Source: Oscillibacter sp. (GTDB taxonomy: Bacteria > Bacillota > Clostridia > Oscillospirales > Oscillospiraceae). Taken from it: a stretch of DNA of 64,000 nucleotides. A program made the position numbers and the translations under genes. The stretch is from the NCBI RefSeq assembly GCF_028693505.1, contig NZ_JAQUVF010000001.1, forward strand, positions 25,037 to 89,036, in the 5' to 3' direction. The notes beneath the pieces were generated by a model. The model was not told where the DNA came from. It searched no databases and saw only the letters and a program-made list of their open reading frames with translations. Of this stretch, positions 5,076-54,312 are shown piece after piece. Positions within the stretch are counted from its first letter, which is position 1, and every line of letters starts with the position of its first letter.

Positions 5076-5111
5076 GAAACAGCCCGCCTGCATTCGCAGG
5101 CGGGCCGTTTC
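5076..5111. terminator. Bidirectional terminator between thioesterase and kinase genes
   Basis: The stem GAAAC..CCCGCCTG / CAGGCGGG..GTTTC ends the plus-strand thioesterase gene and the minus-strand kinase operon. A solo end of the terminator-associated repeat lies directly beside it. Confidence 0.8.
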
Positions 5112-5157
5112 AACAGGTCGAAAAAGTCTCACTTAAGTTCACCGCCGGGGCGGTTTC
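5112..5157 (-). repeat. Solo right end of the terminator-associated element
   Basis: On the minus strand this reads CCGCCCCGGCGG, then GTGAGACTTTTTCGAC, then the terminator hairpin. It matches the right ends of the complete elements at 26745-26944 and 54074-54273. The left part of the element and a second hairpin copy are missing. Confidence 0.65.
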
Positions 5158-6399
5158 CTAGTATTCGGCGCTGCGCTTGAGCGGCAGAGTAAAGAAGAAG
5201 CGGGTGCTCTCTAAGTCGCTTTCCACCCGGAGCGCTGTCTTGTGCTCTTTGGCAATGGCGGCGGCGATGGAAAGCCCCAGTCCAAAGCCGGACTGTTCCC
5301 CCCGGGAGGCGTCCGCCCGGTAAAAGCGCTCAAAAAGGTGGGGCAGCTGATCGCTTGGAATGGGCGTTCCGGTGTTGGAGACGGTCACCTTGGCCTGCCG
5401 GTCCGTTTTTTCAAGGGTCAGGCGGATAACGCCGCCGTCGGCGCCGTATTTGATGGCGTTGTCCAGCAAAATGGAGAGGACCTGGCGCAGCTTGTCCCGG
5501 TCGCCGCTGACGGTGACTGCCTCCGCAATCTCGTATTCCAGGGGTTTTCCCGCCTCAAAAGCCACCGGCTCAAAGGCCAGTGCGCAGTCCGCGGCCAGAT
5601 CGGAAAGGGAAAACGGCTCGCTGACAGCAGCGCGCGCCATGTTGTCCGCTCTGGCCAGCGTCAGCATTTCCTCCACAAGGGATTTCATCTGCCTTGCCTC
5701 GGAGTTGATGTTGTCCGCCCACCGGGCGGGCCGCTCCTCCAGCGTGGCAGTCTCCAAAAGTTCGGCGTTGGAAAGAATGACGGTGAGCGGCGTTTTCAGC
5801 TCATGGGAAGCGTCAGAGAGAAACTGGCGCTGCTGGCTCCACGCCTTTTCAACAGGGGCCGTGGCCCAGCGGGAGAGCAGAATAGACACGCCCAGCAGCA
5901 AAAGAAGCGCCGCGCACACAATGCCCAGATAGGAGCCGATGAGCTTGTGGAGCATGCTTAGCTCCATGGACATATCCACGAAGGCAATTTTTTGATAAAG
6001 ACCGTTGTCCTGACGCAGATACCGCAGCCGGTACGTTTTCACGGTGCCTTCCGTCTCCTGCTGGCCCAGACACTCCGTTAAAATTGCCTGCAATTCCTCC
6101 GTGTCCTCCAGATTGGCATAGGTGCCGCCGGTGATATAGGCCCGGTTTCCCCAGACCTCCACAGTAAAATACGGCAGCAGCACCCGGTCCCCGCCCACGG
6201 TGATGCCGATGTCCGGCCGGACGATCCCGGAACCGTCCATGTAGGCGGACTCCTGCGCCACCCGGTGCAAAACCTGTCGGCTCAGGGTCTCCACGTTTCG
6301 CTCCACAGAGAAAAAGACCAAAAGAAAGACCACAGCCAAAATCGCGGTGACCAACGCCATGCAGATGGCGACAAACTTTAACCGCAGCTTTCGGATCAT
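5158..6399 (-). CDS. OmpR-family sensor histidine kinase
   Basis: The 413-aa membrane sensor has two transmembrane segments (about residues 8-30 and 155-177) around an extracellular domain. The phospho-acceptor motif SDASHELKTPLTVI follows, then a HATPase domain with N box (LLDNAIKYG) and GFGLGLSIA. It should phosphorylate the response regulator encoded 69 bases upstream. The signal is unknown. It is the last gene of a three-gene minus-strand operon that begins with a DUF4340 membrane protein. Confidence 0.93.
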   Translation of the reverse strand: MIRKLRLKFVAICMALVTAILAVVFLLVFFSVERNVETLSRQVLHRVAQESAYMDGSGIVRPDIGITVGGDRVLLPYFTVEVWGNRAYITGGTYANLEDTEELQAILTECLGQQETEGTVKTYRLRYLRQDNGLYQKIAFVDMSMELSMLHKLIGSYLGIVCAALLLLLGVSILLSRWATAPVEKAWSQQRQFLSDASHELKTPLTVILSNAELLETATLEERPARWADNINSEARQMKSLVEEMLTLARADNMARAAVSEPFSLSDLAADCALAFEPVAFEAGKPLEYEIAEAVTVSGDRDKLRQVLSILLDNAIKYGADGGVIRLTLEKTDRQAKVTVSNTGTPIPSDQLPHLFERFYRADASRGEQSGFGLGLSIAAAIAKEHKTALRVESDLESTRFFFTLPLKRSAEY

Positions 6400-25704: not shown

Positions 25705-25717
25705 GGAGGAAATGCGT

Positions 25718-26707
25718 ATGAAAACCATTTTAGTCGCCGGCGGGGCCGGGTACATCGGCAGCCACATGGTGGCGCTGCTGGTGGAAAAGGGGTACGACGT
25801 GATCGTGGCGGACAACCTGCGCACCGGGCACTGGCAGGCGGTGAAGGGCGCGCGGCGGCTGTATGTGGGCGATTTGCGGGACAACGCCTTCATGAATCAG
25901 ATTTTTGAGGAGAATCGGGTGGATGGGGTCATCAACTTTGCCGCCTATTCTCTGGTGGGCGAGAGCGTCACAAACCCGCTGAAGTATTACGGCAACAACG
26001 TGGCCGGGTCCCAGTCCATGCTGACGGCCATGAAAGACCACGGCGTCACAAAGATCGTCTTTTCCTCCACCGCCGCCACCTACGGCGAACCGGAAAAACA
26101 GCCCATTGAAGAGTGCGACCGCACGGACCCCACCAATCCCTACGGCGCGACGAAGCTTGCCATCGAGGGCATGCTCAAATGGTGCGATGCGGCCTACGGC
26201 ATCCACTATGCCGCCCTGCGGTACTTCAACGCCGCCGGGTCCAACCCGGAGGTGGGCATCGGCGAGGACCATGACCCGGAGAGCCACCTCATCCCGCTGG
26301 TGATGAAAACCGCGCTGGGCCAGCGGGCCCATATCGGCATCTACGGAGACGACTACCCCACCGCGGACGGCACCTGCGTCCGGGATTACATCCACGTCCG
26401 GGACTTGGCCGAGGCCCATTTGCTGGCGCTGGAGCATCTGGAAAAGACCGGGAAGAGCGGCGTTTTCAATCTGGGCAGCGGCAGCGGCTATTCCGTCCGG
26501 GAAATCATTGACACCGCCCGCCGCATCACCGGGCGGGAGATTCCCGCCGTGGTGGAGCCTCGCCGGGCGGGGGACCCCTCCGTGCTGATCGCCTCCAACC
26601 AAAAGGCTGCCCAGATGCTGGGATGGACGCCCACCCGGGGCCTTGACCAGATCATTGCCGACGCGTGGGCGTGGCACTCCACCCACCCGGGCGGCTACGG
26701 AAAATAA
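25718..26707 (+). CDS. galE: UDP-glucose 4-epimerase
   Basis: The 329-aa extended SDR enzyme interconverts UDP-galactose and UDP-glucose, completing the Leloir pathway. The NAD-binding motif GGAGYIGSH is at the N-terminus, with catalytic Tyr-x3-Lys in NPYGATKLAIE. The second of two nearby ATGs was chosen because AAGGAGGA is 7 bases upstream. It is the last gene of galKTE; its terminator is split by a 200-bp repeat. Confidence 0.96.
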   Translation: MKTILVAGGAGYIGSHMVALLVEKGYDVIVADNLRTGHWQAVKGARRLYVGDLRDNAFMNQIFEENRVDGVINFAAYSLVGESVTNPLKYYGNNVAGSQSMLTAMKDHGVTKIVFSSTAATYGEPEKQPIEECDRTDPTNPYGATKLAIEGMLKWCDAAYGIHYAALRYFNAAGSNPEVGIGEDHDPESHLIPLVMKTALGQRAHIGIYGDDYPTADGTCVRDYIHVRDLAEAHLLALEHLEKTGKSGVFNLGSGSGYSVREIIDTARRITGREIPAVVEPRRAGDPSVLIASNQKAAQMLGWTPTRGLDQIIADAWAWHSTHPGGYGK

Positions 26708-26712
26708 AAAAA

Positions 26713-26744
26713 CAGCAGGTCCCGCATGTTTGCGGGGCCTGCTG
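26713..26744 (+). terminator. Left copy of the galE terminator hairpin
   Basis: The hairpin CAGCAGGTCCCGC ... GCGGGGCCTGCTG lacks a T-run because the repeat element begins immediately after it. An identical hairpin with a T-run follows the element. Confidence 0.85.
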
Positions 26745-26944
26745 AGACTGTCTAAAAAGCCGTCAGGCTTTTTAGACAAAAGGGTTCGCTGCGCTCTGCG
26801 CCTCATCTGTCCGCTTTCGGCGGACAATTCGACGCTCGCTTCGCGCAAAGTGTTTTCGTCCACGTACGCGCCGCGGCCGAAAACGAATTTTCATTTCTTT
26901 GCCGCCCCGGCGGCAAACGCTGTGAGACTTTTTTGGAGAGCTGT
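26745..26944 (+). mobile_element. 200-bp terminator-associated element, copy A
   Basis: The non-coding element begins TGAGACTGTCTAAAAAGCC, which folds with GGCTTTTTAGAC into a hairpin with its own T-run. It ends with a conserved block (GAAAACGAATTTT, GCCGCCCCGGCGGC, then TGTGAGACTTTTTT). The 30-base terminator stem of galE is present unchanged on each side (26715-26744 and 26945-26974). Copy B at 54074-54273 has the same length and ends but a different flanking hairpin. No ORF is credible inside. Confidence 0.75.
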
Positions 26945-26980
26945 GCAGGTCCCGCATGTTTGCGGGGCCTGCTGTTTTTT
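26945..26980 (+). terminator. Right copy of the galE terminator, with T-run
   Basis: It repeats the left hairpin exactly over 30 bases and carries the six-T tract that the left copy has lost. The original terminator is therefore split around the element. Confidence 0.9.
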
Positions 26981-26986
26981 ATACCG

Positions 26987-28003
26987 TTACGGCTGCAAGA
27001 GGTTCACGAGCCGCTGGAGATCGGCGGCGGAATCCAGATAGTCCCGGACGCTATCCCGGGGCGCAAGGTCTGCGCCGTTTGCGGCGTTATAGGCCGCCGT
27101 TTTCTCCCCGAGGGTGTCGTTGACCTCCGAGAGCGTGACGGTGCGGGACTGATCGTCGCCACCCTCCAGCGGATAGGTCCACGAGATCTCCCCCAGATTG
27201 CCCACCAGCGCGAAAAGCAGCGGCGCGGCTTCCTGCATCCGTCGGTCCAGATCAACGGCGGCGCGTGCCGTGCAGGGAATGTCGTAGACAAAGGTCCACT
27301 CGTAAGGCTCCTCGGCGGTTTGCAGCGCCATGGTGTAGCCGCCCGGAAGGCCCGGAACCAGCGCAGCGGTGATTCGCCCCAGCGCCGAGGCGTTGCCCAC
27401 ATAGGGTGTTTTGGCGTCGTACAGCGCCGCCGTGGAGGGGAAGATGGTCACGCCGTTTTGCCAGAGGAGCTTTCCGCCAAGATACACCTCCCGCACGCCG
27501 GAAAGGTCAAGGGTGGTCCGGTAGTCCCCGGAGGGATACAGCGGCGAGGAGAGGACCTTGCGCGCGGTGATCGTCACCACGCCGTCCGTCTCCTCCACCC
27601 GCCAGCGGCAGTAGGACGCGGCGGACTCCGCTGTGAAAACCCGCAGCTGCAAGTCTGTTTTTCCGTCGGAGAGGACGCTCCAGCTCAGGCCGCTTTTCCC
27701 GGCGGCCTCTCCGATGAGGAAAAGCTTTGCCCCAAGGGCGCACAAAAGAAGCGCCGCGGTGCAGAGAATGCCCAGCGCCACCTTGCGCCGTCCCCTGCGG
27801 CGCAGGGCCTTGAGATAGTCCACCTCCCGCTCCGCCCCGGCAGGGGCGGTTTCCGTCTGCCGCATGGCGGCAAGGCTTGCCGCGCAGTCCGGGCAGACGG
27901 ATAGATGCGCCTCCACCGCCGCGTTGGTCTCCGCCCCGGTGAGTCCCTCCGCAAAGCTTGGCAGCAGGTCCCGCACCACAGCGCAGGTCAAATCATTTTT
28001 CAT
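26987..28003 (-). CDS. Anti-sigma factor with zinc-finger domain
   Basis: The 338-aa protein has an N-terminal anti-sigma zinc finger (HLSVCPDC, HxxxCxxC), one transmembrane helix near residues 74-94 and an extracellular domain of unknown fold. It should hold the upstream ECF sigma factor at the membrane until an envelope signal releases it. Its start overlaps the sigma gene's end by 11 bases, typical of sigma/anti-sigma pairs. Confidence 0.88.
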   Translation of the reverse strand: MKNDLTCAVVRDLLPSFAEGLTGAETNAAVEAHLSVCPDCAASLAAMRQTETAPAGAEREVDYLKALRRRGRRKVALGILCTAALLLCALGAKLFLIGEAAGKSGLSWSVLSDGKTDLQLRVFTAESAASYCRWRVEETDGVVTITARKVLSSPLYPSGDYRTTLDLSGVREVYLGGKLLWQNGVTIFPSTAALYDAKTPYVGNASALGRITAALVPGLPGGYTMALQTAEEPYEWTFVYDIPCTARAAVDLDRRMQEAAPLLFALVGNLGEISWTYPLEGGDDQSRTVTLSEVNDTLGEKTAAYNAANGADLAPRDSVRDYLDSAADLQRLVNLLQP

Positions 28004-54040: not shown

Positions 54041-54073
54041 GCAAACGGAGCCTGCATTCAAAATGCAGGCTCC
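54041..54073 (+). terminator. Left copy of the ECF-gene terminator hairpin
   Basis: GGAGCCTGCATT / AATGCAGGCTCC without a T-run; the repeat element follows at once. A copy differing by one loop base lies at 54274-54306. Confidence 0.85.
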
Positions 54074-54273: not shown

Positions 54274-54312
54274 GCAAACGGAGCCTGCATTCAACATGCA
54301 GGCTCCGTTTTT
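54274..54312 (+). terminator. Right copy of the ECF-gene terminator, with T-run
   Basis: It matches the left hairpin at 32 of 33 positions and adds GTTTTTC. It also serves as the A-rich side for the convergent LysR gene. Confidence 0.88.

Follow-up and report, generated by a model that had tools for sequence, protein, structure and literature searches.

The window, the whole 64,000-nucleotide stretch of Oscillibacter DNA that was analysed, contains the same terminator hairpin twice behind one gene, and the question was how a complete hairpin came to stand on both sides of a short non-coding element. The 30-bp sequence GCAGGTCCCGCATGTTTGCGGGGCCTGCTG was found at positions 26715-26744 and 26945-26974 of the plus strand, with 100% identity and 200 bp apart. 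Only the left copy was preceded by an A-run, and it had no T-run downstream; only the right copy was followed by a T-run (TTTTTT). The initial annotation had claimed both the identical hairpins around a 200-bp non-coding element and the retention of the T-run by the right copy alone, and both claims were confirmed. The element, termed copy A, occupies 26745-26944 (plus strand). Its left terminal inverted repeat (26743-26759, plus strand) has its first two bases in common with the hairpin copy, and its right terminal inverted repeat (26925-26944, minus strand) is degenerate compared to the consensus. The target was the terminator of a galE-like open reading frame of 331 aa (25712-26707, plus strand); the name galE is the label of the initial annotation. 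As this reading frame converges with one of 338 aa on the minus strand (26987-28003), both taken from the ORF listing, the site looks like a shared bidirectional terminator.

On the plus strand the right hairpin copy folded with -26.2 kcal/mol (z -6.56) and was followed by UGUUUUUU, and on the minus strand the left copy folded with -24.4 kcal/mol, with one internal mismatch, and was followed by a U-run. From these two folds with their U- or T-runs, one complete-looking terminator per direction appears to survive at copy A, and both would be expected to function. A simple terminator scan called the right copy on the plus strand and did not call the left copy on the minus strand. It had also been proposed that the element supplies a hairpin with a T-run of its own at the left junction. 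A hairpin with a 13-bp stem was indeed present there (26749-26778, plus strand), but its five T form part of the stem, and it was not recognised as a terminator by the simple scan. The duplication alone would leave a hairpin with a T-run on each strand, so the element's own hairpin would not be needed for termination.

BLAST with the 200-bp element as query gave 20 places in the genome of the same strain. Fourteen loci were used as they are, L010 and L012 were the parts of one copy split across two contigs, and four short right-end fragments (L017-L020) were excluded, which left 15 testable copies. In 13 of these the flanks shared a direct repeat with a score of at least 14, and mismatched pairs of left and right flanks reached the same score in only 1 of 210 cases. 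Because the hairpin sequence changed from site to site, this layout of duplicated hairpins is beyond chance. Twelve of the 13 repeats were 21-39 bp long, included the palindrome and had at most two mismatches; in L005 just 14 bp matched, owing to unlike loops. In L006 and L013 one hairpin was missing, and no repeat was found at a score of at least 14. The initial annotation had asked whether further copies are flanked by identical hairpins and had named many copies away from terminators as the contrary pattern; among the 15 testable copies the flanking hairpins prevailed, and that pattern did not appear. Of the 13 sites examined, 11 had four or more T among the eight bases behind the hairpin, and relative to this T-rich side the element lay one way at five sites and the other way at six. 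With a length of 200 bp, no coding capacity, multiple copies, inverted repeats and a target duplication, the window element is a MITE with terminal inverted repeats of about 17 bp.

A second copy in the window (copy B, L015; 54074-54273, plus strand) was also found by BLAST; its flanking hairpins of 33 bp (54041-54073 and 54274-54306, plus strand) differed by one mismatch, and a T-run followed the right one. A right-end remnant of the element lies at 5107-5158 on the minus strand, just behind an ORF and beside a terminator-like hairpin read by eye (5082-5105, minus strand), and the stretch 5082-5158 is probably a third, truncated copy in the window. Of the short right-end fragments elsewhere in the genome, L017, L018 and L020 each lie directly beside one terminator hairpin and are read as truncated or decayed copies. 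In L007 (G000:C35:30558-30746) the right hairpin read as the reverse complement of its left counterpart (loop GTAA vs TTAC), which suggests a loop inversion at the hairpin. This reversed loop and the arm differences in L002 and L171 could be explained by errors of copying or repair at hairpins.

The body of the MITE (26745-26944) consists of successive hairpins in which the copies differ by compensatory changes. Three internal hairpins were located on the plus strand, one at 26808-26826 that is conserved in the alignment of copies, one at 26852-26884 (GTTTTCG..CGAAAAC), where both sides had changed in 4 of 11 pairs, and one at 26898-26917 (TTTGCCGC..GCGGCAAA), where this applied to 3 of 8 pairs. 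RNAalifold predicted 43 pairs for the 15 own copies, of which 13 had changes on both sides. These 13 pairs (30 cells) compared with shuffled means of 4.8 pairs and 6.5 cells and were reached by none of 500 shuffles, which do not keep the relatedness of the copies and were applied to a structure derived from the same alignment. Slid versions of the alignment gave at most four pairs changed on both sides. The body hairpins thus look conserved, as DNA or as RNA, and the case for this is good, if short of proof. An Rfam search of 26650-27050 up to an E value of 5 returned four matches, none of them to an intron family; all were below the gathering scores and were judged to be chance, and the identity with a group II intron or another known RNA was rejected. 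Class C group II introns insert behind terminator hairpins, and the terminator association is the one trait that would suit a remnant of such an intron; inverted repeats and target duplication are not traits of introns, which makes this origin exceedingly improbable.

The family of the element was indicated by its ends, which read, from the outside in, TGAGACTGTCGAAAAAG and TCAGCTTGTCGAAAAAG. The right end was identical in 14-16 of 17 bases to the ends of five loci from congeners (L071, L073, L076, L080 and L108), with a shuffled maximum of 11-12, and all five loci match NF033551, the IS1182 profile, and abut hairpins. Five named-plasmid IS agreed with it in 11-14 of 17 bases, and a search of genome contigs with the right-end pattern gave one record, L129 from an uncultured Eubacteriales bacterium. 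At its left end, where the hairpin with the 13-bp stem lies, the MITE is similar to the autonomous IS at their right end, in which a hairpin continues directly into the inverted repeat (L059, L076, L089). Matches to NF033551 were present in 39 of 86 congeneric genomes. The element itself contains no gene and hence encodes no IS1182-type transposase, and the draft genome of its own strain (97.65% complete) gave no match to NF033551 or PF13751. For these reasons the element is classed as an IS1182 derivative and not as an IS, and a helper transposase is hypothetical. It is very likely that the element is a non-autonomous (MITE) derivative within the IS1182 transposon family that targets hairpins and duplicates them whole.

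A search for RAYT/TnpA-REP transposases had been suggested with the initial annotation, and REP/RAYT-like or IS200/IS605-type mobility via single-stranded hairpins would suit an element that is rich in hairpins and located at hairpins. However, Y1_Tnp (PF01797) had no match in the own genome, and the ends are inverted repeats that match those of DDE-type IS1182 elements. A target duplication is also present, and IS200/IS605 elements are not known to make one. Mobility of this kind is therefore regarded as very improbable.

Autonomous IS1182 copies in congeners and on plasmids had the same layout as the MITE. The congener IS L059, which scored 447 bits against NF033551 (cut-off 270), lay between identical 25-bp palindromes. 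From the congener G082, an assembly of two contigs, 13 copies were fetched, and both ends were recognised in ten of them (L089, L099 and L100 were dropped). Seven of these ten copies were flanked by a duplicated hairpin, as compared with 0 of 90 mismatched pairs; L093, L094 and L096 failed the test. Transposase matches at an E value of 1e-5 were found in 1831 of 72,556 plasmid records. A palindromic repeat of 20-30 bp was present at 11 of 15 plasmid loci, a sample that is not random, as the loci were hand-picked for spread among the matches listed and many from Enterococcus were passed over. The 11 loci came from Sutcliffiella, Lactococcus, Peribacillus, Acetoanaerobium, Cetobacterium, Alkalihalophilus (ISBspe1), Rhizobium (four loci) and Macrococcoides and span Bacillota, Fusobacteriota and Alphaproteobacteria. 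At L203 and L220 the palindromes differed between the two sides, which would fit a later exchange between copies, and L217 and L219 had no palindromic repeat.

Other groups of MITEs were detected in the congeners with the strict end pattern TCAGNCTGTCGAAAAAGTC, which occurred in 18 of 86 genomes and, as a reversed control, in none. It gave 81 matches in G060 (a 1.8-Mb congener), 32 in G032, no exact match in the own genome, and 41 in G073, where one element can give two matches through its end hairpin. A stem of at least 7 bp ending no more than 2 nt from the repeat was found at 25 of the 28 loci evaluated (30 fetched), compared with 196 of 1800 random positions. Duplicated hairpins flanked 11 of 14 evaluable MITE copies in G060 (mismatched pairs 1/182; 20 regions fetched) and 7 of 9 in G073 (0/72; 20 fetched). 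Among more divergent MITE relatives in congeners, 8 of 19 loci passed (28 fetched; mismatched pairs 2/342); the BLAST ends were often not the true ends here, which makes the test a weak one. A supposed 43-bp mini-element in G073 turned out to be the end hairpin of a MITE of 222-280 bp. The copies L161 and L178 (G060:C2 and G060:C27) have the same left flank and different right flanks, owing either to recombination between copies or to an assembly error. In a tandem pair (L033/L051; G055:C66:48721-49139) 187 of 191 bases were identical and the hairpin was present in three copies, which would be explained either by unequal exchange or by a second insertion into a hairpin already duplicated.

The two hairpins could also be older than the insertion, if the element had landed between pre-existing tandem terminators, or younger, if recombination or repair had produced the second hairpin afterwards. 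That hairpins are altered after insertion is seen from L006, L013, L093, L094, L096, L203 and L220, where one is missing or exchanged, and the three hairpin copies of the tandem pair L033/L051 would also be compatible with such a history. Sites without the element bear directly on this explanation. At the Lactococcus plasmid locus L201 an IS lies between two copies of AAAGAACCTCTTGGTTCTTT. With this locus as query, 35 other plasmid records matched, all of them from Lactococcus, and six were fetched. In five of these six the site without the IS was intact and had one hairpin where the filled L201 has two. The junction expected without the IS and one of the hairpins, 194 bp long, was matched in 194, 193, 192, 192 and 192 bases. 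As judged from these records, the empty sites show that insertion of the Lactococcus IS duplicates the whole hairpin. Two hairpins without an element, which had been named as contrary evidence in the initial annotation, were not seen at these five sites. An origin from tandem terminators or later repair is already disfavoured for the Lactococcus IS and, as the pattern recurs at unrelated hairpins in many species, improbable altogether. The original view that the element was inserted into a terminator, whose whole hairpin was duplicated, is therefore supported by 13 of 15 own copies together with the single-hairpin sites of Lactococcus.

At the sixth site (L210; NZ_CP087605.1, 2779-4750) the same terminator hairpin contained a different insertion, which is about 0.7 kb long and has inverted repeats of its own. 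This insertion has an apparent 10-bp duplication, read by eye, and the hairpin of L201 and L210 may be a hotspot. Empty sites for the window's own copies, proposed as a check in the initial annotation, were not found: the right flank of copy A was searched in 86 genomes of the genus, and with identities of only about 66-76%, none of the longer matches could be used to assess the terminator itself. For the IS of Cetobacterium, Peribacillus and Sutcliffiella, no record with the flanks only was found among the matches listed (1 record, 20 of 36 and 10 of 29), where only the query's own record holds most of the query.

For 43 pooled repeats (one version per repeat pair, with L005 and the later plasmid loci left out) the midpoint of the duplication lay no more than 1 bp from the palindrome centre in 35 cases and no more than 2 bp in 40, with a median length of 27 bp. 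The target-site duplication is a complete hairpin of 14-39 bp and, as had been stated at the outset, unlike the usual short ones. No common sequence was evident among the targets. As the midpoints are centred while the lengths vary and the targets have no evident common sequence, the cut points track the feet of the palindrome. A transposase that measures a wide stagger on an ordinary twofold-symmetric duplex, with no need for an extruded hairpin, could generate the same element, as a symmetric protein on a symmetric duplex would also cut symmetrically about the palindrome centre, as observed. Against this, a single bound dimer should produce a stagger of almost constant width, whereas the spacing follows the palindrome from 14 to 39 bp, again at targets without an evident common sequence. 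We consider such a duplex mechanism conceivable and rather unlikely.

Most simply, structure would be recognised, strands would be transferred at both feet of the hairpin and the gaps would then be filled; this course corresponds to the alternative route in the model drawn in PMC5678879 (legend to Fig 13). The transposase, of the IS1182 type and produced elsewhere, would bind the terminal repeats of the element and mobilise it in trans. Its targets would be palindromes able to form a hairpin, mostly intrinsic terminators, chosen for their structure and not for their sequence, with an extruded hairpin or cruciform as the putative substrate. The two ends of the element would be joined at the feet of the hairpin, one to either strand, presumably by attack at the 5' feet, and each single-strand gap would span the whole hairpin, so that gap filling would yield one complete hairpin on either side. 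The duplication takes in the stem and little of the flanking A- and T-runs. As a result, the plus strand keeps a hairpin with a T-run to the right of the element and the minus strand one to the left, and termination would probably be retained.

This structural rule may extend well beyond the window. We regard it as somewhat more probable than the contrary that a large IS1182 lineage, spread over Bacillota, Fusobacteriota and Alphaproteobacteria, as a rule duplicates the whole hairpin, that its transposase reads structure, not sequence, and cuts at both feet, and that its MITEs use terminators as self-repairing safe havens, lengthening the 3' ends of many transcripts and leaving a terminator for both strands. 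The findings provide natural evidence, including an empty site, for duplication, a branch of the model that was no more than a proposal in the drawing by Wan et al., and they suggest that one transposase family may either erase or copy a hairpin. The data also yield a target rule that is independent of sequence, the two feet of a palindrome, and directly testable. They account for a class of terminator-flanked repeats in this genus and show how a terminator can receive an insertion and not obviously be destroyed by it.

For IS1182, repeats with lengths of up to about 60 bp are on record, so curators may be aware of the trait. In the open-access literature, the scope of our search, to which ISfinder and Siguier's review did not belong, whole-hairpin duplication was not found as an observed product. 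According to the reports on IS1272 and TnSha1 (PMC5678879, PMC4923244), these elements take the place of the hairpin or remove part of it, and the target is not duplicated; in the legend to Fig 13 of PMC5678879 duplication is drawn only as an alternative path of the proposed model. As described there, they resemble the window element in belonging to the IS1182 family, in their inverted repeats and in inserting into hairpins without sequence preference, with terminators among the targets and in both orientations. They differ in that the hairpin is replaced or deleted, whereas that of the window element is duplicated whole. Hairpin replacement of the IS1272 type was rejected for the window element, as both hairpin copies are present at 13 of 15 own sites. 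Nor is whole-hairpin duplication family-wide, because ISPse1, also of the IS1182 family, is tabulated with a 4-bp repeat in PMC3281130. Palindromic targets were ascribed to some IS1182 members by Siguier et al., as far as cited in PMC5678879 and PMC4923244, and were found here for 13 of 15 own copies and 11 of 15 plasmid IS loci. Other IS1182 elements, such as ISBspe1 of Alkalihalophilus pseudofirmus (L212) and the plasmid IS whose transposases are annotated as IS1182, have similar end repeats and duplicated whole palindromes at 11 of 15 loci; they encode a transposase, in contrast to the window element, a 200-bp derivative whose body consists of conserved hairpins. Bacterial MITEs in general are likewise short, non-coding and multi-copy, with IS-type inverted repeats and a target duplication, but the duplication made by the MITE of the window is a complete hairpin of variable length.
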